This document shows positions 536 through 13,905 of a stretch of 20,093 bases of DNA, piece by piece. The stretch comes from a virus, in the IMG/VR virus record IMGVR_UViG_3300042319_000447, positions 1-20,093 of that record. The stretch is one strand, 5' to 3'. Below the pieces are notes generated by a model. That model was not told where the DNA came from. It saw only the letters and a program-made list of their open reading frames with translations, and searched no databases. Position numbers and translations under genes: made by a program. Position 1 is the stretch's first letter; each line of letters opens with the position of its first letter.

Positions 536-3500
536 ATGGCAAGAATCAAAAAATATGGATTAACTTATGCACAACCATTAAGTGCATATGCAACATTTAT
601 AAAAGACACGGCACCAAATTCTCAATATTTTAGAATTACCGAATTTAAAGAAACATTTACTGGTGGTAAAAATGGTTTCTTAATTGAAGGGTGTGAGCAC
701 TTAAGCCAAGCAACGGAAGTTCAGATTCAGGTATTAGATGTTGCTGGTAACGCATTATATGTTGAAGTTGGAAATGGTATTCCTGAATATTACGAAGGAA
801 CATCAAAAATAATTTCAGTTTATGTATATGAAGATACTCCGGCTGGACCAGCAACTATAACAATATTAGGTCAATTAAAAACATATTTAGATGAAGGTGG
901 GGTTGTACGAAATATACCCGATGAGTGGAAAAATAATTATAATATTAAATGGCAAAAATCATTTAATATAAACACACTTTTAAGAAACGAAGATAAGGTA
1001 AGATTTTATAGAAGACCAAAAGTTGATATAACCGAAATAGTTAAACCAATATTTTCGGCGGGATTTTCAAATGTAACAAATACGGGATTAGTAAGTGGAA
1101 CGCCTGTATCTCCTAGAACTGGAGAATATTTATCTGATTATAAACAACCAGCTTCATATCGTTTAAAAACAACAAATAGTGCGTTTACAGGTTCAATGGA
1201 AGGTAACTTAATTAATGTAACTAGTTTAGCATATTCTCCTGTAATATCGGAAGTAATAAATAAAAACGAAATAATAGTAACGCAGCCATATGTAGATTCA
1301 TTTGGAGTTGTTTTACCATTTACTGATAGGGCATATACATCTACATTTAGTTATATTGAAGGAGCTAGTAATATAGCAAGTGCACTTACGGGGTCTTTTG
1401 CAAAAATAAAATTAACTGATTTAACTGCTTTTGTTGGTGATGTTGCTAGAGTTAGAATATTTAGAAAATCTCAATCAGATGTTACCGATTATCAATTTGT
1501 ACAAGAGGTTGTATTGGAAACAAATGAATTACTTTTAGATTTAGAAACAACTAATAAAAATCAAGAAACATATGGTATATTTACGCAAGATATAATAAAA
1601 GATTATTGGGTAACTTCATCAAATAGTATATCAGCACAATTTAATCAAAATTATTTATTTAATTCTGTAAAATTAGATAGTTCAACTCCAAATTATTTTT
1701 ATACAACAAAATCTTTAGCAATAACAAAAGATGCTGAATATAATTTAAGTTTTAATGTAAGATTGACTGAAAATATAGCTCCAGGTAATTACATTAAGGC
1801 TTTTTTAAGTGGCTCAAAACAATCTACAAATGGAACTGTACAAGTAAAACAAGCAATTACAACTGTATCATCTACAAATAATGTATTACAAAAATCAACA
1901 AATACTGATAATATAATAGCTGAAGAAATAGATAATGCTAGGTTGTATTTTGAAGTAAAAGGAAACGGATGGCATGTTGCAAATGTAAGTTTTGTAGCAG
2001 CTCAAGAGACATCTTTTTCTCCTGACGAAATTACATTTATACAACCAGTACCAAGAACATTACCTGAAGAAACTTTTAAATATCGTTTTGAGTTTTATGA
2101 TATTAATAATAATTATATTCCTGTATTAGTTGAAGAAACTAAAACATTTGATGGAGGTAATTTACAAAGATTACAAAAAGGATTAGTATTTAATCCAAAG
2201 TATTTGTATTTTACATTTGATTCTGGTTCAAATCCAGTAGAACCAACAGTTGTAGGATTTAGTGTAACAAAAAATTTATTAACTGGTTCGGTAACATATA
2301 CATCACAATCATTTGATTTTTTTGGAGATGAATTATTTGACTACGATTATACAGGACAAATATATCCTGGTGTGTTGGATGAGATTACAAGCGATAATCC
2401 AACATTAAGAGTTGCTAACTTTACTGGTTCTAGACTGGATAAAAATATCCAGCTTATAAAAATAAAAGGTAATTGTGAAGGTTTTGAGGATACGGTTATT
2501 ATTAGTAAAGTATTAGATGGATTTGGTGGAGTTAATCATATTATTAGACCTTATAGAGGAGTTGATATTAGAAATAGTAGTACTCAAAGTTTAGAAGTAC
2601 AAGCAGTTCGTATTGATGGTATAAATGAAATTATATTAAATAGTTCAGCTGTAAAGAATTGGGGAAATATACAATTACATGTTTTATCCGCATCTCTTGA
2701 CCCATTAAACGAACCTGAACGATTTGTAAACTTAATGTATGTTACTCAAAGTAATTTTATTAAAGGATTGATTACTGGTTCATTGGGTAGTAAACAAATA
2801 AACTATAATGCAACATTTAATAGAGATTCTATTGATAAACGATTGACATTGTATTTAATGCCATCTTCTTCGGCTGTGGGAGTTCCAGCGTATATCGCAT
2901 CATCTTCTGTACTAACTTCAATAGTTCTTTCAGATTTTCAGGATGGATTAGATTCTGGATTCGTAGCATATGATACTGATGTATTTAATATTAATTTCAG
3001 AGACAGTTTAAATTTTATTCCAGCGATTGCAAATGTGACTGGTTCTTTCTTTGTAAGAGGTAGAAACACAGACCCATTAACATCATCGTTGAGTGTATAT
3101 CCATCAATGTCAATTAACAAAGATTTTGTTCCTGAATATTGGGTTTATTATGTAACTCATAGTAGTACTTGGAATAGAGATATTTCAGTTGTTGCAATTG
3201 ATGATGATAATAATCCAATAATATCCCAAGCACCAAATTCTGCATATGGTAATTATGTAAGAAGTCCATTAAATCAAAGTAAGACATTAACAATAACTTA
3301 CACATATACTGAACCATATACATCTGCATCGGTTAGCGTTGATAAGACATTTACAATAATTCCTGCTGGTAAGCCTGGTGACGAAAGTATTGTATTTGAA
3401 ATAAACCCAGCTAATGTATCACTAAAAGCAAATCCAAAAGGTATAGTTAATAGCTATTCATCTTCGGTAACGGATATAAGATTAAAGCAAGGGTCTAGAT

Positions 3501-6500
3501 ATTTGATATATACGGCAAGTAGAAAAGAAGGTACATTTTATATAGCACAAGCATCTATTACATCTTCTAATATAATGCCCGGTTTTGTAATTAATCCAGC
3601 TGGACCTGGTTTTAATAAAGATTTTACTGGTTCTTTATTTATAGGAACTGCAAATAGTTTAACTAATTTAAGTGGTAGTGTAACATATCCATTGGAAATA
3701 CAACCATACTACACATCATCAGTTTATACTGCTAGTGTAATACAAACTTATACAAAAATATTAGATGGCCCTCCACCAATAGAAGTAATCATATCACCGG
3801 CAGCTACTGCTATTCAAGCTGATGAAGTTGGATTTGTATCACCTGCAGGATATGCTGGTGCTAATACAACGATTAAAGTTAGAGAAGGAAATGATTATTT
3901 AACTTTAACAACCCAATCAATGGCTCCGGGTACATTTAGAATACAAACAGGAGGTTCTGTAATACCATCAAATATTATGGTGGAAACTATTACATCATCA
4001 TCTAGAGATACTGGTATTGTTAAGTTTAATAGATTTGATTATCCATATGTATCTTCAAGTATTCAATATAATGTTGTTGTAAATCCATACTCATTAACAA
4101 ATGGACATGTTTACACATCATCGGTAATAGAAAGAACACAAACTATTACTAAAAATGTGGCACCACCAAATGCTAGAGCAGTAGCATTGGAAGCAACTAC
4201 AAACACAGTAAATTTTGATGGAGATGGTGTTATAACATCACCATTAGACCCGATAACATTAACTGCAACTGCAACAAATACAACTGGAGCTGTTTGGTTT
4301 AATTTCTATAAAAATGATGATACTAATACTGGAACAGGACCAACTCCAATTCCTGAAGTAAGTGCTGGTTCAAAAACAGCAACATATGAAATTGAGGGTT
4401 CTGATGCAGTAGATCCCGGTGAAAATGCAAAATGGTCTGTTATCATTCGTGATGGTAATAGTTCACCATCCGCACCTATAAGAGCAACAAATTCATTAAC
4501 TATCACTGGTATAAAAAATGGACCAACTGCATATAATGTTCAATTAACAAATGAAAACTGTTCTGTAATATATAAAGTTTCTGGACAACTTTCTGTTGTT
4601 GGGAGTGGTACTCAAGTAAAAGCAACTAAAGGTGATGTTCCATTATTACACAAAACCGCTGTAGTAGATGGAGGACCTGGCTTTAGTCCAAAAACAACTG
4701 ACCAATTTGGTAATGATATTGGTTCAATTGGAGAATACCAAGTTTCCGTATATTCTGTATCAAATCATTTAACATTAGGAGATAGTGTAGAATTCCCTGA
4801 TACATTACCTACATTTAATGATATTGCAAAAATAGGCGATTTAGCCGGATGGGCAACTCCTGAAACATATCCAATTGCTGAAGTAGTATATAAAGTTGAT
4901 ATTGAAAACGGAAGATTAATTCTTTTTAAAACCCAATCATTATCAATTAATTTTGAAGGAGCAACCGGTCCTGGTATTGTAATGAGAGGAGAGTGGAATA
5001 ATACTACGGATTATAGTGGTTCGGTTGAAACTCAAAATAAAAGAAGAGATGCGGTTATTTACGGAACATCTCCTGTAACTTATTACGCTGCGGTAAGTGG
5101 TAGTGGACCTACAACATATAATAAGCAAGGTACTTTAGTTAATTATCATGCACCAACTGCAGGAGGTGATAATGCTTGGTGGCAATTTTTAGGAGAAGAA
5201 GAATTCTTTGTGGCAGCTAAGATTGCAATATTTGAAGAATCATTTGTAAAAAATACAATTAATATTGGTAACAATATTGGAAGTGCATTTGCAAATATTG
5301 TATTAGCTGGAGGACGTAATGACCCATATATGGCTATAGGTCAATATGCTAATATCGGATATAATCAAAGTGGTATTTGGTTAGGAATCTATGATTTAGG
5401 AGCAGGGGCTTATATGCCTAGATTTTCTTTATTAGATACTGCTGGGACTAGTTATTTAAAGTGGAGTGGTACTGGATTGCAAATGGCAGGGGATTTGGAA
5501 ATAGTAGCAGGTGCTACTGGTAACGCATCAACTAAGGCTTTTGCATCTGGTTCGGCTGGAACGGCATTAACATCCGCAGAAAATATAGCACAATTAAAAT
5601 CAACATTTGCATATAGCGCCTCATTATCTAGAACTAAAGAATTAGCAGATGGTGCATTTCCTGGTACTTTTATATCATCTAATTTTATATACTCTCCTAT
5701 TGTTGCTGGGGTAGATGGATATTTCTCATCTACATTTAAAGTAGGACAAAATGGTATTACATTAGACGGTGGTAATAAAAAGATTTATATTGGAACTGGT
5801 ACTTACAAAAATTCAAACACTTCATTTTATGTAGATAATAACAGTCAATTCTCACTTGGAGATAGATTATATTTTGATGGTACTAACTTAACTATTGCTG
5901 GTAAAGTTACTGCAGATAGTGGTAACATTGGAGGTTGGGTTATTGATGGTGATAATTTAAGGGATACAAATTCAAATATTATATTAAATCCAACTGTACC
6001 TGCAATTGAAATTTATGATAATTCTGATGTAAAAAGATTGGATATACGAAAAGGTACACTATCTTCACCTGGTGTTGGTACAACAATCACAATAACACCA
6101 CCACAATTTGATGATGAGTTTGGAGCATCCATGTATTATTATAATACTTGGCCAGGTCTTGAAGAATATCGTTCAGTTGCATATAATACTCTTACTGTAA
6201 GTACATCGGGTACATATATAAACGCTACGCCAAGTTGGGGTGTTTCACCTACTCTTGAGTTAGAAGCAGGACCCAGTAATTATATAGGTGATATATCTGT
6301 AGATATTTATATTGAAATTCACAATTCTTCAACTCCAGGTCTTGGTACAGCTGTACAAATGTTTAAAATAGGACAAGGTAGTACTTTGACAACATCCGGT
6401 CAAACGGTTGGTATAACTAATGTAAATACATCAAGAACTTTATATTTTACAGCCGGTACATATTATGTATTTACAACGGTTCAAAGTATGGGAAGTATAG

Positions 6501-7369
6501 ACTTCTCTACCAATCCTTTTATTAGTAGGGCAGAGCTTACTGGGACAACATTTACACCAAGTGCTGTAACATTAACTACAGCTTTAGACCAAACGGAATT
6601 AACCGATGAAGGATTGTTTATTGTACAAGATATTAATAAGTACGCAAAAATAAGTAGAAATTCATCTGAAGATTTTATTAGTGTATCTCAAAATTCAGCA
6701 ACATACGCTGGTATAAATGCAACAAACTTTTTGGGAAAGGGAAATCCTGCAATTACACTTACTAAAGGAGATTTGAAAGTTTTAGATGGTAGAATTGAAT
6801 TTAATCAACCGGGCGTTGATAGAGGATTTAGTGTTAACTGGACTAAGGGAGCTCCATCAAACTACGAAGGGCAATTAGGACAAGTATTAGATGCTGGGCA
6901 GTTAAGACCTTCTATTAGATTTAATAATATTGCTGGTGCTGGTGCTATTGGTGGTACTATGAGGGGTGTGGAAATTTCTATTGCAAATGGTTGGATTGGT
7001 AGAAATACTTCATCAAGAAGATTTAAAGAAGATATTGAAATTTGGCAGCATCCTAGCGTATTGGATATTATAAATAGTGTAGATGTAAAGACATTCTATT
7101 GGAAAGTAGATGCTGAAAAAGAATATAGACCTCAAAATATAGGTTTGATTGCGGAAGAATTATTAGAAGCGGGACTTGAGGAATATGTGGGATTTGATAC
7201 TGATAGAGATGAAAATGGAGTTGATAAACTTAATTCTGATGGGTCTAAAGCTATGTTACCATATGATATTGATAAAACTGGATTGGTATTCCCATTATGG
7301 AGAGCGGTACAGGAATTATCTAAAAAGGTTAAGGATTTGGAGGATAAATTAAATCAACTTAATTCTTAA
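536..7369 (+). CDS. Giant tail-fibre / receptor-binding protein with C-terminal S74 self-cleaving chaperone
   Basis: This 2277-residue structural protein is a late virion component expected to bind the host surface. The N-terminal ~200 residues are probably the virion-attachment part. The middle is a long beta-rich stalk full of Ser/Thr turns (TGS, TSS, YTSS). It contains two diverged tandem repeats of about 133 residues (945-1077 and 1078-1210) sharing a GTF-I/R...SSNIM / PSNIM core. Residues ~1785-1805 carry ADSGNIGGW, a motif recurrent in phage tip and fibre proteins. The C-terminus is a peptidase S74 intramolecular chaperone: S2159-S-R-R-F-K2164 fits the Ser...Lys catalytic dyad of endosialidase-type fibres. 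Cleavage before S2159 would release about 119 residues. The last ~20 residues form a short coiled coil (VQELSKKVKDLEDKL). The enzymatic or binding specificity of the stalk cannot be read from sequence. Confidence 0.88.
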   Translation: MARIKKYGLTYAQPLSAYATFIKDTAPNSQYFRITEFKETFTGGKNGFLIEGCEHLSQATEVQIQVLDVAGNALYVEVGNGIPEYYEGTSKIISVYVYEDTPAGPATITILGQLKTYLDEGGVVRNIPDEWKNNYNIKWQKSFNINTLLRNEDKVRFYRRPKVDITEIVKPIFSAGFSNVTNTGLVSGTPVSPRTGEYLSDYKQPASYRLKTTNSAFTGSMEGNLINVTSLAYSPVISEVINKNEIIVTQPYVDSFGVVLPFTDRAYTSTFSYIEGASNIASALTGSFAKIKLTDLTAFVGDVARVRIFRKSQSDVTDYQFVQEVVLETNELLLDLETTNKNQETYGIFTQDIIKDYWVTSSNSISAQFNQNYLFNSVKLDSSTPNYFYTTKSLAITKDAEYNLSFNVRLTENIAPGNYIKAFLSGSKQSTNGTVQVKQAITTVSSTNNVLQKSTNTDNIIAEEIDNARLYFEVKGNGWHVANVSFVAAQETSFSPDEITFIQPVPRTLPEETFKYRFEFYDINNNYIPVLVEETKTFDGGNLQRLQKGLVFNPKYLYFTFDSGSNPVEPTVVGFSVTKNLLTGSVTYTSQSFDFFGDELFDYDYTGQIYPGVLDEITSDNPTLRVANFTGSRLDKNIQLIKIKGNCEGFEDTVIISKVLDGFGGVNHIIRPYRGVDIRNSSTQSLEVQAVRIDGINEIILNSSAVKNWGNIQLHVLSASLDPLNEPERFVNLMYVTQSNFIKGLITGSLGSKQINYNATFNRDSIDKRLTLYLMPSSSAVGVPAYIASSSVLTSIVLSDFQDGLDSGFVAYDTDVFNINFRDSLNFIPAIANVTGSFFVRGRNTDPLTSSLSVYPSMSINKDFVPEYWVYYVTHSSTWNRDISVVAIDDDNNPIISQAPNSAYGNYVRSPLNQSKTLTITYTYTEPYTSASVSVDKTFTIIPAGKPGDESIVFEINPANVSLKANPKGIVNSYSSSVTDIRLKQGSRYLIYTASRKEGTFYIAQASITSSNIMPGFVINPAGPGFNKDFTGSLFIGTANSLTNLSGSVTYPLEIQPYYTSSVYTASVIQTYTKILDGPPPIEVIISPAATAIQADEVGFVSPAGYAGANTTIKVREGNDYLTLTTQSMAPGTFRIQTGGSVIPSNIMVETITSSSRDTGIVKFNRFDYPYVSSSIQYNVVVNPYSLTNGHVYTSSVIERTQTITKNVAPPNARAVALEATTNTVNFDGDGVITSPLDPITLTATATNTTGAVWFNFYKNDDTNTGTGPTPIPEVSAGSKTATYEIEGSDAVDPGENAKWSVIIRDGNSSPSAPIRATNSLTITGIKNGPTAYNVQLTNENCSVIYKVSGQLSVVGSGTQVKATKGDVPLLHKTAVVDGGPGFSPKTTDQFGNDIGSIGEYQVSVYSVSNHLTLGDSVEFPDTLPTFNDIAKIGDLAGWATPETYPIAEVVYKVDIENGRLILFKTQSLSINFEGATGPGIVMRGEWNNTTDYSGSVETQNKRRDAVIYGTSPVTYYAAVSGSGPTTYNKQGTLVNYHAPTAGGDNAWWQFLGEEEFFVAAKIAIFEESFVKNTINIGNNIGSAFANIVLAGGRNDPYMAIGQYANIGYNQSGIWLGIYDLGAGAYMPRFSLLDTAGTSYLKWSGTGLQMAGDLEIVAGATGNASTKAFASGSAGTALTSAENIAQLKSTFAYSASLSRTKELADGAFPGTFISSNFIYSPIVAGVDGYFSSTFKVGQNGITLDGGNKKIYIGTGTYKNSNTSFYVDNNSQFSLGDRLYFDGTNLTIAGKVTADSGNIGGWVIDGDNLRDTNSNIILNPTVPAIEIYDNSDVKRLDIRKGTLSSPGVGTTITITPPQFDDEFGASMYYYNTWPGLEEYRSVAYNTLTVSTSGTYINATPSWGVSPTLELEAGPSNYIGDISVDIYIEIHNSSTPGLGTAVQMFKIGQGSTLTTSGQTVGITNVNTSRTLYFTAGTYYVFTTVQSMGSIDFSTNPFISRAELTGTTFTPSAVTLTTALDQTELTDEGLFIVQDINKYAKISRNSSEDFISVSQNSATYAGINATNFLGKGNPAITLTKGDLKVLDGRIEFNQPGVDRGFSVNWTKGAPSNYEGQLGQVLDAGQLRPSIRFNNIAGAGAIGGTMRGVEISIANGWIGRNTSSRRFKEDIEIWQHPSVLDIINSVDVKTFYWKVDAEKEYRPQNIGLIAEELLEAGLEEYVGFDTDRDENGVDKLNSDGSKAMLPYDIDKTGLVFPLWRAVQELSKKVKDLEDKLNQLNS
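3368..4165 (+). repeat. Two tandem diverged stalk repeats within the fibre
   Basis: Residues 945-1077 and 1078-1210 align over most of their length. Both open with a Gly/Pro turn and an I-x-P strand, continue through a KQG/REG-x-x-YL strand, then (E/P)GTF-x-I, then SNIM about ten residues later, and close with a (Q/N)PY segment, Y-T-(A/S)-S-V-I and T-(K/I). They look like diverged Ig-like stalk modules. The match is at protein level only; the DNA copies have drifted apart. Confidence 0.6.
6998..7366 (+). other. Peptidase S74 intramolecular chaperone domain of the fibre
   Basis: The C-terminal domain (about residues 2155-2277) begins at TSSRRFKEDI and continues with NIGLIAEELLEAGLEE and TGLVFPLWRAVQEL, all typical of the S74 family. 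In characterised members this domain drives trimer folding and then cuts itself off using a Ser-Lys dyad, here predicted as S2159 and K2164. The Asp that often follows the Ser is replaced by Ser, while Arg2162 and Lys2164 are kept. Confidence 0.85.
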
Positions 7370-7374
7370 AAAAT

Positions 7375-7389
7375 ATATACTTATATATA
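7375..7389 (+). promoter_or_regulatory. Putative phage promoter, ATATACTTATATATA copy 1
   Basis: This 15-mer ends 13 bases before the ATG at 7403. Identical 15-mers occur at 11085 and 13923, each just upstream of a gene that starts Met-Ala. I read it as a phage-specific promoter from its recurrence and position. The transcription start is unknown. Confidence 0.55.
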
Positions 7390-7402
7390 AATAAATAATA
7401 TT

Positions 7403-7687
7403 ATGGCACAAAAAACTGAAAAATTAGAACAAGGTACATTAGATAAGATAGTAAAATATCAATCTGATGCAAATCAAATTATTTTTGAATTAGGACAATT
7501 ATCTTTGCAAATTAGAGAATTTGAATCCCAATTGAAAAAAGTTAATGAAATTAAAACCCAATCTGAAGAAAAATTTGATAATATAGGACTTCAACTGGAG
7601 AACATATTATCTGATTTACAAAGAAAATATCCAAATGGAGAAATAAATTTAGAAGAAGGTGTAATTAAATTTGAATCTGCTGAATAA
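7403..7687 (+). CDS. Small coiled-coil protein, paralogue A (94 aa)
   Basis: The function is not recognised. The product is mostly one long amphipathic helix (about residues 8-74) with heptad-like hydrophobic spacing, followed by a short C-terminal beta motif, YPNGEINLEEGVIKF. It is clearly related to the 121-residue product at 11121-11486: both have a (L/F)GQ segment, an REIE/REFE-type helix and a C-terminus of the form KYP-(N/Q)-G-x-(I/L)-NL-(E/Q)-(E/D)-G. Similar small helical proteins ending in an INLETG-like strand are common among late genes of T4-like phages. Its place directly after the fibre gene would suit a fibre assembly factor or trimerising chaperone, but nothing in the sequence proves that. 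The start follows an A/T-rich leader (AATAATATT) without a Shine-Dalgarno sequence. Confidence 0.8.
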   Translation: MAQKTEKLEQGTLDKIVKYQSDANQIIFELGQLSLQIREFESQLKKVNEIKTQSEEKFDNIGLQLENILSDLQRKYPNGEINLEEGVIKFESAE

Positions 7688-7693
7688 AATAAA

Positions 7694-7725
7694 TTTGGCA
7701 GTTTCAAAATAATTTCGTATATTTG
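7694..7725 (+). promoter_or_regulatory. Bacteroidota-type host promoter, TTTG-N20-TATATTTG
   Basis: TTTG at 7694-7697 and TATATTTG at 7718-7725 are 20 bases apart. This fits the -33 TTTG and -7 TAnnTTTG elements of the primary sigma factor in Bacteroides and Flavobacterium. It lies directly upstream of the glycosyltransferase fusion (ATG 7743) and predicts a short leader of roughly ten bases. It is the only upstream gap in the window with this host-type element instead of the ATA[C/T]TTAT motif. Confidence 0.6.
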
Positions 7726-7742
7726 TTACAATAAATAGTTTA

Positions 7743-9923
7743 ATGGAAAATCCACGCAAAAAGTTACTTTATGTATGTCCTCATCTTTCTACCGGTGGAC
7801 AACCGCAATACGCATATAAGCAAATAAAACATTTTATTGATGAGTTTGATATCCAAGTTGTTGAAATAAACAATAGTGGGGGTGATGCGTTTGTAGTTCA
7901 AAAAAATAGAATAAAATCGTTAGTTACAGTTCATACACTGGGCGAAGACAAAACGGAAATAATTGAAATAATTGAACAATACAATCCTGATATAATACAT
8001 TTTCAGGAAATTCCACAATTTGATTTACCAAAATATGCATTAGACGTAATATTTAGAAAAAGTAGACCTTATTATATTGTAGCAACTACACATGGTTCAT
8101 TCACAAATCCATCTGAAATAATTTATCAACCCGATAGATATGTTTTAGTATCTGAATGGAGTAGACAAAGATTTATTGATACCGGGGTTGAAACTATGTT
8201 ATGGGAATATCCAATTGAAGAATATACATTTGATAAAGCAACTGCACAAAAAGAATTAGAATTAGACCCAACTTGGAAGCATGTACTAAATGTTGGATTA
8301 TTTGCACCAGGTAAAAATCAAAGTGAAGTATTTGCAATAGCAAGACAATTAGAAAAATATAAAATAAAATTTCATTTTGTTGGTAATCAAGCTATGAACT
8401 TTGAAGATTATTGGTCACCACTAATGAAACACAAACCTGATAATTGTGTAGTGTGGGGAGAGCGTGATGATGTAGATACTTTCTATTCAGCATGTGATAT
8501 GTTTTATTTTAGTTCTAAATTAGAATTAAATCCATTATCAATTAAAGAAGCATTATCGTATAAATTACCTTGTATATTTAGAAAGTTACACACTTATTTA
8601 GATACATATGATAATAATCCGTTAGTAACATATATTGATGATGATTTAAAAATTACCAAAAGAATTATATTACAAACTCTGATGCCTGACTTTAATGAAA
8701 TACCAGGTTGGTTTGTATATAAACCTTTATATGATAAAATGGTAGAAAATGCTCCGTTTAATTCAACATTTGTAGAAGTGGGAGCATGGTTTGGTAAGTC
8801 AACTAATTATTTAGCCGGTAAAATAAAAGAATCTAAAAAGAACATACATTTTACAACCATAGATACTTTTAAAGGAACTCAAACAGAAGAATTGCATTTA
8901 AATATTGTAGATAATTTCAATGGAGATATACTTTATGAATTTATAGATAATACTATTATATCAAACAATTATGGAACATTTGATATTATAAAAGATGAAT
9001 CAAAAAACGCAGCAACTCAATTTGTAAATCAAAGTATTGAGTATTTGATGATAGATGGTGGGCATTCGTATGATGAAGTTATGGATGATATTAGACTGTG
9101 GTATAATAAAGTGAAGCCAGGTGGGGTTATTAGTGGCGATGATTATAATATTTTTGAAGGAGTTAATAGAGCAGCTGATGAATATTTTTACAATCAATTT
9201 GATAAATCCTTTTTCAGATGTTGGGTTAGACGAAAACCACGCATTCAAATTAAACATTTATTAACTAGACCAGAAGATGTTAGAGAACGAGTTAGTATTG
9301 CATCTATAAAACAATTGGCAAAATATGGTATGGATTATCAACCAATTGTAAATAAACCATACGAAGGATTTGCACCAGCTGAACATTGTAGAAGACCTGA
9401 GCATATAAGTAAAGATAATAAGCCAGGTGAGTTACATCCTGGAGCTGGATTGGGTTGGATAACTGGTAGACATTATGGATGTTATCTAGCTCATAGAGGT
9501 GCGTTAGAAACTATGGATGAAACGAACTATGATTACACATTAATATTTGAAGCAGATGCTTTCATTAATGTAGGTTTAGAAGAATTTGTTGATATTGTAA
9601 ATAGAGCATGTTTCTTATCGGAAAGAGATGATGTATATTATATAGGATTGGCAGATAACCCATCTTGGACTAAAGATAGAATAGATAATTTATTTTCAAA
9701 AACAGCAGCAAATCAGGATTTAGCACATGCATACTTAATCCCAAATAGAACAAAACAATGGTGGATGGATAGAATTGAAGATTGTGGATGGGATGTTGGC
9801 GACCTTTGGTATAATCATGTATTTGCTAACCACCCAAAACCAAGATATACAACAAACAAAATGTATAGTAAGCAAGCGGAAGGATATTCTTTATTAGATG
9901 AGACAGTTAAAACTTGGAGTTAA
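7743..9923 (+). CDS. Three-domain glycan enzyme: GT-B glycosyltransferase / SAM methyltransferase / GT25-like glycosyltransferase
   Basis: This 726-residue fusion has three readable parts. Residues ~1-320 are a GT4-like GT-B glycosyltransferase: a Gly-rich N-terminal loop (STGGQPQYAY), the start of the C-terminal Rossmann lobe (NVGLFAPGKNQ, near 185) and an EX7E motif (E261...E269) typical of retaining enzymes. Residues ~325-490 are a class I SAM methyltransferase (Methyltransf_24 type), with motif I VEVGAWFGKST at 344-354 and IDGGHSYDEV near 438. Residues ~500-726 resemble GT25 (LPS-type, GT-A fold): LLTRPEDVRERV near 506, GCYLAHRGALE at 579 and FEADA at 602-606 as the metal-binding acidic motif. 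Together they suggest sugar addition, methyl capping and a second sugar addition by one chain. Donor and acceptor are unknown. The TAA shares one base with the next ATG, so the two genes are translationally coupled. Confidence 0.85.
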   Translation: MENPRKKLLYVCPHLSTGGQPQYAYKQIKHFIDEFDIQVVEINNSGGDAFVVQKNRIKSLVTVHTLGEDKTEIIEIIEQYNPDIIHFQEIPQFDLPKYALDVIFRKSRPYYIVATTHGSFTNPSEIIYQPDRYVLVSEWSRQRFIDTGVETMLWEYPIEEYTFDKATAQKELELDPTWKHVLNVGLFAPGKNQSEVFAIARQLEKYKIKFHFVGNQAMNFEDYWSPLMKHKPDNCVVWGERDDVDTFYSACDMFYFSSKLELNPLSIKEALSYKLPCIFRKLHTYLDTYDNNPLVTYIDDDLKITKRIILQTLMPDFNEIPGWFVYKPLYDKMVENAPFNSTFVEVGAWFGKSTNYLAGKIKESKKNIHFTTIDTFKGTQTEELHLNIVDNFNGDILYEFIDNTIISNNYGTFDIIKDESKNAATQFVNQSIEYLMIDGGHSYDEVMDDIRLWYNKVKPGGVISGDDYNIFEGVNRAADEYFYNQFDKSFFRCWVRRKPRIQIKHLLTRPEDVRERVSIASIKQLAKYGMDYQPIVNKPYEGFAPAEHCRRPEHISKDNKPGELHPGAGLGWITGRHYGCYLAHRGALETMDETNYDYTLIFEADAFINVGLEEFVDIVNRACFLSERDDVYYIGLADNPSWTKDRIDNLFSKTAANQDLAHAYLIPNRTKQWWMDRIEDCGWDVGDLWYNHVFANHPKPRYTTNKMYSKQAEGYSLLDETVKTWS

Positions 9924-11071
9924 TGATATACGATAATTTAAAAAAGAATGAAAACAATATAGTTAAAATTCAAAATAAAGTAACCCTTAATTTTGTAAGA
10001 GGGCCATTTGTTGAGATTACAGGAAATAAAAAAGCTGATTATAAAGTTGATTTTGTGGATAATAAAACTGGTAAAGTTTTATTTAGTAGTAATATTGGTT
10101 CTAATTGTTGGACTAAATGTAATATAGAATATTTTGTAGAATGGAAAGTAAACATATATGAAGATGGTAAACTTTGGTATGAACATCTTTATAATGCAAA
10201 AGGTAAACGAGTTTATATATCATTAGATTCTAGAGCATTAGGCGATACATTGGCCTGGTTTGCTTATATAGATGAGTTTAGAAAAAAACACGAATGTAAT
10301 GTTGTTACTTCTACATTTATGAATGATATGTTTATAGAGCAATATCCTAATTTAGAATTTGTTACACCTGGTAATAATGTAGATAATTTATACGCTATGT
10401 ATTCTATTGGATTATTTTATAATGATGATGATTCAGTAAATTTATTAAAAAACCCAATTGACCCTAAAAGTGTTACTCTTCAAAAAATGGCATCTGATAT
10501 TTTAGGAATAGATTATATTGAAATAAAACCAAAAATAAAAGAAAGAAATATTAAAATAGATAAAAATCTTAAGCAAGTATGTATTGCTGTATTTGGAACA
10601 GCTCAACCAAAATTTTGGAATAATCCATCTGGTTGGCAAGATATTGTAGATTGGTTAAAAGCTAGAGGTTATATTGTTAAATTAGTATCCAAAGAAGGTG
10701 ATGACTATATGGGAAATAAATTACCAAATGGAATAGTGCAACATCCACATGGACCTATTGAATGTGTTATGGATGAGATGAAAAAATCAAAAGCATTTAT
10801 TGGTATTGGTAGTGGATTGAGTTGGTTAAGTTGGACGTTAGAAGTACCTACTGTTTTAATAAGCGGATTTTCGTATGAATGGGCTGAAATGAGAGATTGT
10901 ATAAGAATTGGAGCTCCAAAAGGTAAATGTGAAGGATGTTTTAATAGACTTAGATTAGATGCCGGAGATTGGAATTGGTGTCCTGACCATAAAGGTACAA
11001 ATAGACAATTTGAATGTACTAAATCAATTACATCTGAAATGGTAATAAAAGAATTAGAAAAATTCTTATAA
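9923..11071 (+). CDS. BAHT-family protein O-glycosyltransferase (TibC-like, strand-loop-strand heptosyltransferase)
   Basis: The start is the ATG at 9923, which overlaps the previous stop (TAATG); a TTG nine bases upstream would add only three residues. The 382-residue product follows the BAHT family throughout. It has an N-terminal beta domain (residues ~15-95, with VRGPFVEITG), a GT-B region with SLDSRALGDTLAWFAYIDEF, KFWNNPSGWQDIVDWL and FIGIGSGLSWLSWTLEVP, and a C-terminal cysteine cluster C336-x2-C339-x13-C353-x11-C365 (WCPDHKGTNRQFEC). In TibC and relatives this cluster binds iron, and the enzyme transfers heptose from ADP-heptose to Ser in repeated strand-loop-strand acceptors. No autotransporter is present here. 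The adjacent Ser/Thr-rich fibre, or a host surface protein, are candidate substrates. The actual sugar cannot be told from sequence. Confidence 0.87.
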   Translation: MIYDNLKKNENNIVKIQNKVTLNFVRGPFVEITGNKKADYKVDFVDNKTGKVLFSSNIGSNCWTKCNIEYFVEWKVNIYEDGKLWYEHLYNAKGKRVYISLDSRALGDTLAWFAYIDEFRKKHECNVVTSTFMNDMFIEQYPNLEFVTPGNNVDNLYAMYSIGLFYNDDDSVNLLKNPIDPKSVTLQKMASDILGIDYIEIKPKIKERNIKIDKNLKQVCIAVFGTAQPKFWNNPSGWQDIVDWLKARGYIVKLVSKEGDDYMGNKLPNGIVQHPHGPIECVMDEMKKSKAFIGIGSGLSWLSWTLEVPTVLISGFSYEWAEMRDCIRIGAPKGKCEGCFNRLRLDAGDWNWCPDHKGTNRQFECTKSITSEMVIKELEKFL

Positions 11072-11084
11072 AAAATATAAAATA

Positions 11085-11100
11085 ATATACTTATATATAC
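11085..11100 (+). promoter_or_regulatory. Putative phage promoter, ATATACTTATATATA copy 2
   Basis: This is a 16-base exact match to the copy at 13923-13938, and its first 15 bases match the copy at 7375. It lies 20-21 bases upstream of the ATG at 11121, directly after the glycosyltransferase pair. Confidence 0.55.
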
Positions 11101-11120
11101 AAAACAATTAAATAATAATT

Positions 11121-11486
11121 ATGGCAGAGTTAGACAAAATTCCACAAAAGCAATCAATTGAAATTGAAATTGCTAAATTAGATGAAGATGTAATAAAAAA
11201 TATTACAGAATTAAACCAAAAATCAAACAATTTAATTTCAGATTTTGGACAAATTTACATCAGAAAAAGAGAAATTGAAGATGAATTAACTAAATTGGAT
11301 GAAATTTTAGAAAAAGGAGAAAACGACTTTAAATCTATTAATATGAAATTAAAAGAAATAGTAGATGCATTGGATGATAAATACCCACAAGGTAGATTGA
11401 ATCTACAAGATGGCACAGTTCAATATCAACCAGGTGCACCTAGTAGAAAACAATTAGCAGAGCAACAAGCTCAACAAGCTAAATAA
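11121..11486 (+). CDS. Small coiled-coil protein, paralogue B (121 aa)
   Basis: This gene is homologous to the 94-residue product at 7403-7687, which lies on the other side of the two glycosylation genes. Residues ~15-85 form a charged amphipathic helix. The shared C-terminal motif (KYPQGRLNLQDGTVQY) follows, and this copy then adds a Gln/Ala-rich tail (residues ~105-121, ending QLAEQQAQQAK). Both copies are preceded by the same 15-base motif and start Met-Ala behind an AATAATAATT-like leader. I infer an old gene duplication, with the glycosylation pair either inserted between the copies or carried with one of them. A scaffold, fibre chaperone or small virion protein is possible; the function is unknown. 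Confidence 0.8.
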   Translation: MAELDKIPQKQSIEIEIAKLDEDVIKNITELNQKSNNLISDFGQIYIRKREIEDELTKLDEILEKGENDFKSINMKLKEIVDALDDKYPQGRLNLQDGTVQYQPGAPSRKQLAEQQAQQAK

Positions 11487-11520: not shown

Positions 11521-11550
11521 ATGAAAGGATTAGCAAAGTTTTTAGTAGAA
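11521..11550 (+). other. Capsid-targeting-like N-terminal peptide
   Basis: Residues 1-11 (MKGLAKFLVES) follow the pattern M-K-x4-F-(I/L)-x-E-(A/S), as does the MKTYQEFIAEA peptide of T4 internal proteins. In T4 the prohead protease gp21 cuts after Glu in (L/I)-x-E. Here the cut would fall after E10 (FLVE/S) or after E15 (ILLE/A). The adenylyltransferase fold itself begins only near residue 21, so this peptide is an added extension. Confidence 0.5.
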
Positions 11551-13905
11551 TCAATATTGTTGGAAGCGGATTCCATAGACAAAGTAGTTGTTGTCTATTC
11601 GGGCCGCTTTCAACCTTTTCATAAGGGCCATTACGCAACTTATGATAATTTAGTAAAGAAATTCGGAAAGGATAGTGTGTATATCGGAACTTCCAATGTT
11701 ACCGATTCAAAGAAATCTCCATTTAATTTTAAAGAGAAAAAAGCAATAATGACAAATATGTTTGGTATTCCATCAAGCAAAATTGCCAATATCAGAAATC
11801 CATATGCACCTGAAGAAATTCTAAATAAATACGATGAAGATACAACTGGTTTAATAGTTGTAGTTGGTGAGAAAGACCAAAATAGATTAAGTGGTAAATA
11901 TTTCGCACCATATAAAGGAAAGGTAACTGAACCTTATTTAGATAGAGGATATGTTTATGCATCCCCTGCTACGGCAAATCCTATTAGTGGTACTGATGTT
12001 CGTTATTGGTTAAGTGCTGGAAGTGCTGCCGATAGAAAGAAAAACTTTACAAAAGCATATCCTAGATTTGATGAACAAATATTCAAATTAATTACTCTTA
12101 AGTTAAAGGGATTAAAAGAATGTATCAACGAAGAAATTAAACTAAACGTAAAAGTTGGTGATACTTTACTAATGGGTAAATTCAAAAATAAAAAAGTAGT
12201 TGTTAAAAATATTGGTAAAGATGAGTGGGGAATGCCAACAATCAATGGTAAGAAAGCAGTAACATTCAGAATACCAAAAAAAGATGATTTAAAAGAAATG
12301 GGTCTTGGTGGTGGAGCTGGTGTAGGTTTGAGTTTACCGGGTGGATATATTAATGGAGCGCCTGATACTAAAGATGTTAAGAAAAATAGTAAGAAACTTA
12401 ACAACAAAGGAATGAGTGGATATGAGGAGATTGATGAAGATACTGATACTATTCCTGGTGGTTTGGCAAAAGGTAAAACGCTAATTGATTTGGCTAAGAA
12501 GTATGATGAGAAAGGATACTATGACCCAAACCAATTTGCAGCAGAATATATCAAACCTAAATTAATGAATGGTATTAAAGTTGAAATGGAACATACAACT
12601 GATGTTCGTATTGCAACTGAAATAGCTATGGACCATTTATGGGAAGATATCAACTATTATGAGAAATTAGCTAAAATTGAAAAACCAATAAAAGAATCTT
12701 TATTAACAGAAGGTGGGGCTTATGGACATATGGCACATCCATTTGATATTGAAATGGGTTTAACATTTGGTGACCTTAAACAAATAGTAGTAAGAGCCCT
12801 TAATGGTGATTTGGAATTAGCAAGAGAAAAAACCGATGGACAGGCATTAGCAATTAGTTGGGTAAATGGTAGATTGGTTGCAGCTCGTAACAAATCTCAC
12901 TTAAAAGATAAAGGAGTTGGTGCTATGACAATAGGACAAGTAGCAGATAAGTTTGCTGGTAGAGGTGGATTAACCGATGCTTACAACTTCGCTATGCAAG
13001 ATTTATCAAAAGCAATTGCAGCATTATCCGAACCTCAACGTAAGAAGGTTTTTAAGGATGGTAGTTCGTTTATGAACTTGGAAGTAATATATCCAACGTC
13101 TGTAAACGTAATCCCTTATAATCAACCCCTATTAGTATTTCATGGTACTTTTGATTATGATATGGCTGGTACTATAATTGGACAAAATCAAGATGCAGCA
13201 AAAGTATTAGGTGGAATGATTAAGCAAGTAAACGCACATGTTCAAGCTAAATACACAATACAGGGACCTCCAATGCAAACACTCCCTAAAACCGAACATC
13301 TTTCTAAATTACAAGGAAAGTATTTGGGAATGATTTCTAAACTACAATCTGAATTTGGGTTAGCTGACTCGGATGGTGTAGCAGATTATCATCAGGCTTG
13401 GTGGACAAATTTTGTAGAAAAGGGAGCAAAGAAATTGGATGCACAACAAAAAATAGGATTAATTAAAAGATGGGCTTTTTTAGATAAAAGTTTTCGTATA
13501 GGGGATATAAAGGATGACAAGATAAGAGCTTGGGCTGAACAAACGGATAAGCAAGACCAACAAAAGATATCAAAACAAAACTTAATGAGATTTGAGGAGA
13601 TATTCTTAGGCGTTGGTGCAGATGTATTATCATTTATGACATCAGTATTAACTGCAAATCCTGCAGAAGCTACTAAACAAATGAAAGCAAAATTACAAAG
13701 TACAATATCTCAAGTAAAAGCAAGTGGTGACCCTAAAAAGATTGCAAAACTTAAATTAGAATTAAGTAGGATGCAAGCTTTGGGTGGATTTGATAAAATC
13801 GTACCAAATGAGGGATTGGTATTCGTATATGGTGGAAACACTTACAAACTAACAGGTGCATTCGCACCGCTTAATCAGATTTTAGGCATATTTTTTGATT
13901 CTTAA
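11521..13905 (+). CDS. HxGH adenylyltransferase fused to a covalent nucleotidyltransferase (ligase-like), with a capsid-targeting-like N-terminus
   Basis: The 794-residue product has several modules. Residues 1-11 resemble the T4 internal-protein capsid-targeting peptide. Residues ~20-190 are an HxGH nucleotidyltransferase: GRFQPFHKGH at 28-37 and ISGTDVR at 155-161, closest in pattern to NMN adenylyltransferases (NadM type). Residues ~205-255 form a small beta module (VGDTLLMGKFKNKKVVVK). Residues ~310-390 are helical, with VEMEHTTDVRIATEIAMDHL. Residues ~398-794 look like an ATP- or NAD-dependent ligase-type nucleotidyltransferase: motif I K437-T-D-G, a motif III-like E521 (FMNLEVIYP), motif IV E764-GLVF and motif V with K776 (YKLTG). 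The spacing from motif I to IV (about 327 residues) is long, which implies an insertion. Possible roles are NAD synthesis coupled to nucleic-acid ligation, or RNA/DNA repair. The substrate is unknown. ATATTTAT lies five bases upstream. Confidence 0.8.
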   Translation: MKGLAKFLVESILLEADSIDKVVVVYSGRFQPFHKGHYATYDNLVKKFGKDSVYIGTSNVTDSKKSPFNFKEKKAIMTNMFGIPSSKIANIRNPYAPEEILNKYDEDTTGLIVVVGEKDQNRLSGKYFAPYKGKVTEPYLDRGYVYASPATANPISGTDVRYWLSAGSAADRKKNFTKAYPRFDEQIFKLITLKLKGLKECINEEIKLNVKVGDTLLMGKFKNKKVVVKNIGKDEWGMPTINGKKAVTFRIPKKDDLKEMGLGGGAGVGLSLPGGYINGAPDTKDVKKNSKKLNNKGMSGYEEIDEDTDTIPGGLAKGKTLIDLAKKYDEKGYYDPNQFAAEYIKPKLMNGIKVEMEHTTDVRIATEIAMDHLWEDINYYEKLAKIEKPIKESLLTEGGAYGHMAHPFDIEMGLTFGDLKQIVVRALNGDLELAREKTDGQALAISWVNGRLVAARNKSHLKDKGVGAMTIGQVADKFAGRGGLTDAYNFAMQDLSKAIAALSEPQRKKVFKDGSSFMNLEVIYPTSVNVIPYNQPLLVFHGTFDYDMAGTIIGQNQDAAKVLGGMIKQVNAHVQAKYTIQGPPMQTLPKTEHLSKLQGKYLGMISKLQSEFGLADSDGVADYHQAWWTNFVEKGAKKLDAQQKIGLIKRWAFLDKSFRIGDIKDDKIRAWAEQTDKQDQQKISKQNLMRFEEIFLGVGADVLSFMTSVLTANPAEATKQMKAKLQSTISQVKASGDPKKIAKLKLELSRMQALGGFDKIVPNEGLVFVYGGNTYKLTGAFAPLNQILGIFFDS
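12700..12717 (+). other. Possible internal prohead-protease site (LLTE/GG) between enzyme domains
   Basis: Residues 394-399 read L-L-T-E-G-G, which fits the (L/I)-x-E/(G/A/S) cleavage preference of T4 gp21. The site lies exactly between the helical module and the KTDG ligase-like domain. Cutting after E397 would separate the two catalytic halves. This is inferred from motif and position only. Confidence 0.35.

Follow-up and report, generated by a model that had tools for sequence, protein, structure and literature searches.

The protein encoded at positions 9923..11071 (+ strand) of the virus record IMGVR_UViG_3300042319_000447, a large environmental phage whose 20,093 bases constitute the window analysed here, is probably a protein O-glycosyltransferase of the TibC type that would attach one sugar, most likely a heptose, to the repeats of phage tail fibres, with a coupled GT4/methyltransferase protein elaborating the glycan. 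The proposal draws on a comparison with hundreds of relatives: homology, the conservation of the catalytic residues and of the iron finger, the order of the genes, and a statistical linkage with repeat-encoding genes. From these we infer the acceptor, the donor, the elaboration of the glycan and the effect on the virion.

The enzyme is a member of the TibC family

The open reading frame starts with an ATG at 9923, its stop codon ends at 11071, and the product is 382 residues long. The sequence-only reading had assigned a phage-borne BAHT (TibC-like) protein O-glycosyltransferase to exactly this frame, and a profile search against the BAHT family, set beforehand as a check, places the protein inside it: the TIGR04414 profile (autotransporter strand-loop-strand O-heptosyltransferase) is matched at 292.6 bits against a cut-off of 200 over profile positions 10-373 of 374, and TibC (PDB 4RAP) is matched with E=3.3e-53 in a single-sequence phmmer search and with E=1.5e-85 in a profile search. 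All 44 diverse relatives included in the alignment also match TIGR04414, each with E < 1e-10, while the N-terminal TibC beta-barrel domain (Pfam TibC_1st) scores 16.2 bits in the window protein, with a cut-off of 27.

The residues known to be important in TibC are mostly retained. In the TibC numbering of PMC4358343, the catalytic base Asp110 corresponds to Asp108 of the window protein (codon 10244..10246, + strand), and Thr226, Lys230 and Trp305 correspond to Thr226, Lys230 and Trp301; all four are invariant in 44/44 relatives. The hydrophobic pair at the tip of the beta-hairpin thumb, Phe265-Val266 in TibC, is Tyr262-Met263 in the window protein, and Tyr-Met is kept in nearly all relatives. 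The cysteines of the motif C336-x2-C339-x13-C353-x11-C365 (10928..11017, + strand), rightly described earlier as intact, align column by column with Cys339, Cys342, Cys358 and Cys370, the iron ligands of TibC (PMC4358343), and would form the same putative 1Fe-0S iron finger; each of them is invariant in TibC and in 44/44 relatives. A similar cysteine spacing arose in 87 of 20,000 shuffled sequences and is therefore weak evidence when taken alone, which does not apply to the homology, and it is the alignment to the known TibC ligands that carries the argument.

The most conspicuous departure concerns Arg286, which in TibC contacts the adenine, is highly conserved and essential, and upon replacement by alanine abolishes or largely reduces activity (PMC4358343). 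The equivalent position is Val282 in the window protein and Val in 80/80 close phage relatives; among the 44 phage-type proteins it is Val, Ile, Leu, Thr, Ala or Met in 43 and Arg in one. The position of Pro300 is likewise occupied by Gly or Ser in the phage-type proteins. With Asp110, Thr226, Lys230 and Trp305 invariant but Arg286 replaced, the catalytic core is kept and the nucleotide contact has changed.

A phage-type branch apart from the autotransporter enzymes

In the functional sense, a BAHT enzyme transfers heptose from ADP-heptose onto Ser, forms a dodecameric ring and has an autotransporter as its partner. By sequence, the window enzyme belongs to a separate branch: in the tree, nine classical autotransporter-type proteins including TibC are split from all phage-type proteins at 100/100, and TIGR04414 scores are 480-660 bits for the classical members and mostly about 190-380 bits for the phage-type ones. 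AIDA stalk repeats are found in the immediate neighbours of two classical loci, and a classical locus of Pantoea is annotated likewise. In contrast, no autotransporter was found next to the phage-type enzymes, and Pfam and PHROG searches confirm the earlier statement that the window encodes none. The phage-type proteins therefore resemble TibC and Aah (BAHT, TIGR04414, PDB 4RAP/4RB4) in full-length homology above the family cut-off, in the catalytic Asp, Thr226, Lys230, Trp305 and the four iron-finger cysteines, and in the hydrophobic thumb tip, but differ in branch, in the residues at positions 286 and 300, in the partner protein, in their frequent fusion or coupling to GT4/methyltransferase modules, and in the HldE-like genes that often follow.

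The proteins from Methylobacter, Methylomicrobium and Polaromonas nest among the phage proteins in the tree, and the chromosomal enzymes of methanotrophs and Polaromonas (loci L084, L086, L087 and L088 and other Methylococcales loci) sit within the phage diversity. Such nesting suggests that the enzyme has been transferred between phages and bacteria together with the repeat gene described below.

Linkage to collagen-like repeat proteins

What consistently accompanies the phage-type branch are collagen-like proteins with Gly-[Thr/Ser]-Ser repeats, in phages mostly tail-fibre-like. The phage-type enzymes were grouped into 37 clusters at 70% identity, and tracts of the G-[ST]-[ST] type of at least 15 or at least 60 residues were sought around them. 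A repeat open reading frame lies within about 10 kb of the enzyme in 26 of the 37 clusters at the shorter length and in 21 at the longer one, and in several unrelated clusters the two genes are separated by just 45-150 bp. At the 60-residue level no repeat frame occurs in 57 random viral loci, in 78 Gly-Pro-x loci or in seven classical BAHT loci, the last examined with 13-20 kb of flanking sequence after a first comparison with just 4-7 kb, which was unfair to them. In composition the tracts are Gly-[Thr/Ser]-[Ser/Asn]; the second position is Thr or Ser in ~98% of cases, a value to which the search pattern itself contributes. In PHROG the proteins find matches to tail fibre and collagen-like minor tail families, for which their low complexity is partly responsible.

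The linkage is also seen in the reverse direction. Among 80 viral contigs selected solely by a nucleotide pattern of the repeat, TIGR04414 is present in 23 (22 above cut-off), and the 57 contigs that lack it are mostly short fragments; among those of at least 60 kb, 15/21 have the enzyme and 6/21 do not. None of 50 control contigs picked by a random 14-mer contains TIGR04414, nor does any of 41 picked by (Gly-Pro-x)5, the latter chosen for length. The difference corresponds to a Fisher p=3.6e-9 overall and 1.1e-6 for the long contigs, values which ignore relatedness and habitat; the contigs are largely fragmentary, environmental and phylogenetically non-independent, and the controls are unmatched for host and habitat.

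A similar arrangement is found in bacteria, where 9/10 phage-type loci (one weak) have a repeat frame no more than about 1 kb from the enzyme and the classical loci examined have none. The count includes six Methylococcales loci typed as phage-like by score outside the tree, which contribute five pairs, one of them weak. In Methylobacter, Methylomicrobium and Polaromonas the adjoining gene encodes a putatively exported protein with (Gly-Thr-Ser)n-type repeats that matches Pfam Collagen, the export being judged by eye from a signal-peptide-like or lipoprotein-like N-terminus. Most of these bacterial genomes have such repeats at one or two places, one of which is always ~1 kb or less from the enzyme.

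The window itself has no repeat tract and extends just 9 kb downstream of the enzyme, so the acceptor for this particular phage is extrapolated from its relatives. Sixteen longer contigs of its group and nearest relatives were examined for this purpose: the seven that continue for at least 21.7 kb past the enzyme all encode repeat frames, on the same strand and 16-42 kb downstream of it, and the nine ending earlier show no downstream repeat frame among the positions listed.

The sugar donor

The site between the enzyme and the next gene of the window (11072..11120, unstranded) is empty, and comparison with relatives identifies it as the place of split HldE-like genes, an adenylyltransferase with or without a kinase. 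Extra DNA of ~1.17 kb is present here in 25/77 relatives and of ~0.43 kb in nine more. Where read, it encodes a 129-aa protein, the best match of which is heptose-1-phosphate adenylyltransferase (TIGR02199, E ~1e-25, about 88-107 bits against a cut-off of 181.5), and a ~247-aa protein with heptose-7-phosphate kinase as its best match (TIGR02198, E=1e-15, 58 bits against 345, for a tested piece of 150 aa). The proteins carry SPEAPVP and KGxxRP-type motifs. They resemble HldE in having TIGR02198 and TIGR02199 as best NCBIfam matches, but differ from it in being split into two small genes, adenylyltransferase then kinase, in scoring below both equivalog cut-offs, and in that their substrate is putative. 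The pair also occurs in four other clusters, and in locus L250 a GT4-BAHT fusion, the adenylyltransferase, the kinase and a repeat fibre are all encoded in about 6 kb, while neither the random nor the Gly-Pro-x loci contain HldE-like genes. As gmhA was found in just 2/38 enzyme-bearing records, a full heptose pathway is not encoded.

A heptose is plausible because the split HldE-like genes directly follow the enzyme in many relatives, which makes ADP-heptose the leading candidate donor. It is possible, though doubtful, that the repeats are the acceptor and the sugar is something other than heptose, the near-universal replacement of Arg286 and the Gly or Ser at position 300 marking a different NDP-sugar, as the effect of R286A in TibC would allow. 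However, Thr226, Lys230 and Trp305, which provide phosphate and heptose contacts, are invariant, and Ser at position 300 is also found in AAH, which takes both ADP-heptoses (PMC4358343). A change of donor was not adopted from Arg286 alone in view of the HldE-like neighbours. The NMN-adenylyltransferase-type gene at 11521-13905 was considered as an ADP-heptose synthase and rejected, as it matches NMN adenylyltransferases; its 794-aa product has an NMN-adenylyltransferase-like N-terminus (GRFQPFHKGH), a DUF5661 domain and a KTDG motif that resembles those of ligase-type nucleotidyltransferases, and the gene is conserved beside the terminase in relatives.

Gene neighbourhood and alternative acceptors

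The enzyme gene is embedded in a cassette on the + strand. Directly upstream lies a gene for a 726-aa multidomain partner (7743..9923, + strand), assigned from Pfam and PHROG matches, the stop codon of which overlaps the start codon of the enzyme in a TAATG junction; in 79/80 relatives the glycosyltransferase protein stops 2-17 bp ahead of the enzyme. The partner consists of a GT4-type glycosyltransferase (residues ~1-320), a Methyltransf_24/TylF-like methyltransferase (~340-480) and a C-terminal part with weak similarity to GT25, which is below cut-off. At the edges of the cassette are two coiled-coil-like paralogues, of 94 aa at the 5′ side (7403..7687, + strand) and of 121 aa at the 3′ side (11121..11486, + strand), which share 31% identity over 87 aa (E=3e-17) and flank the glycosyltransferase genes as if the cassette had inserted in a duplicated gene. 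In 80 viral loci the gene order, as far as each extends, is fibre, 94-aa protein, 726-aa GT4/methyltransferase/GT25-like protein, BAHT enzyme, 121-aa protein, NMNAT-like protein, 227-aa protein, terminase and portal. No RNA or tRNA genes were found in the window, and PADLOC returned no match that would indicate a defence role for the three proteins submitted.

The window terminase is 56-58% identical to those of Flavobacterium phage immuto and Microcystis phage Mel-JY01, two phages in which T4-like genes are annotated. Immuto, the closest sequenced relative by terminase, has neither the enzyme nor repeat tracts. Mel-JY01 encodes both enzyme and repeats; its BAHT domain makes up the C-terminal portion of a 1226-aa product (4750-8430) that carries no annotation beyond methyltransferase FkbM, with GT4 at the N-terminus and the methyltransferase in the middle. 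A BAHT-GT4 fusion is also present in a 735-kb phage (LR756501), where genes for a Gly-Thr-Ser repeat protein and for a glycosyltransferase of 1140 aa lie close by, and another BAHT fusion, on a 7.5-kb contig of a Rickettsiaceae MAG (L085), lies beside phage-like, fibre-type genes and may come from a mis-binned phage fragment.

Upstream of the cassette is the 2277-aa fibre gene (536..7369, + strand), the product of which matches PHROG tail fibre and Peptidase_S74 chaperone domain families. Its Ser/Thr-rich character had been noted earlier and is real, Ser and Thr making up 19% of the residues, and the accompanying suggestion that the phage glycosylates this fibre or another virion protein holds in its general part: modification of a virion protein is, from the genomic evidence, a well-supported and most likely role for the enzyme, but this fibre is probably not the main acceptor. 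That the enzyme modifies it at ordinary Ser/Thr, independent of repeat tracts, is unlikely. The fibre gene does precede the cassette in the window and in those relatives that reach far enough upstream, and short tracts of the G-[ST]-[ST] or G-[ST]-x type occur among its orthologues in 16/153 loci of the window's cluster; however, no G-[ST]-[ST] tract is found in the window's own copy, and in other phages and in methanotrophs the same branch of enzymes adjoins unrelated repeat proteins instead of orthologues of the fibre. The fibre is hence a conserved neighbour and not the favoured acceptor.

The linkage could in principle reflect the mere shared ancestry of large aquatic phages that own both genes, and the mostly environmental, largely freshwater-type origin of the loci, set against controls not matched by habitat, gives this some weight. 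We nevertheless regard it as very unlikely, considering that the two genes directly adjoin each other in several unrelated clusters, that they are paired in the chromosomes of Methylococcales and Polaromonas as well, and that another collagen-like repeat gave 0/41. Finally, a role in altering the host's surface glycans (LPS or capsule), for instance as a block to superinfection, with a lipid-linked or saccharide acceptor for the enzyme, is highly improbable, since despite GT4 and methyltransferase partners typical of surface polysaccharide synthesis and a distant similarity to Glyco_transf_9 and WaaC-type heptosyltransferases, the invariant features include the iron finger and others specific to TibC, which serve protein-substrate recognition and oligomerisation there (PMC4358343), and the linkage with repeat proteins is tight in both phages and bacteria.

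Proposed mechanism

In the favoured model, modification of the Gly-[Thr/Ser]-Ser repeats, a cytoplasmic GT-B enzyme of the TibC fold family would be made during infection and add one sugar, most likely heptose from ADP-heptose, to Ser/Thr of the collagen-like repeats in phage tail-fibre proteins ahead of virion assembly. The donor would be supplied by the host or, in many relatives, by the HldE-like genes adjoining the enzyme, and the translationally coupled 726-aa protein would probably add to this first sugar and methylate it. For the window phage, we expect the repeat fibre to be encoded beyond the end of the contig, 16-42 kb downstream of the enzyme. The chances are about even that this represents a widespread phage O-glycosylation system combining TibC-type heptose priming of repeat fibres, linked GT4/methyltransferase glycan building and an HldE-like donor supply, with the enzyme-repeat pair moving between phages and methanotrophs.

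Discussion

Phage genomes are rich in glycosyltransferases without an assigned target. A search of a limited library for phage BAHT enzymes, GTSGTS repeats, phage HldE and Mel-JY01 gave no account of the present system, which may be a widespread, undescribed route by which phages decorate their particles. A likeness exists to the virion glycosylation of mycobacteriophages (Freeman et al. 2023, as cited in PMC12619734), where, so far as that citing account goes, phage-encoded glycosyltransferases also decorate virion proteins; there the C-termini of capsid and tail-tube proteins are modified, whereas the present data point to a TibC-type enzyme and to collagen-like repeats in fibres.

If the model is correct, one large class of phage glycosyltransferases would gain a defined acceptor, one that a short repeat peptide would suffice to test, and the TibC family would be widened from beta-helical adhesins to collagen-like repeats. 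The collagen-like Gly-Thr-Ser fibres that are common in environmental phages would then be glycoproteins, a phage-carried supply of ADP-heptose would be raised as a topic, and receptor binding, fibre stability and defence or immune recognition would need to be rethought for such phages.
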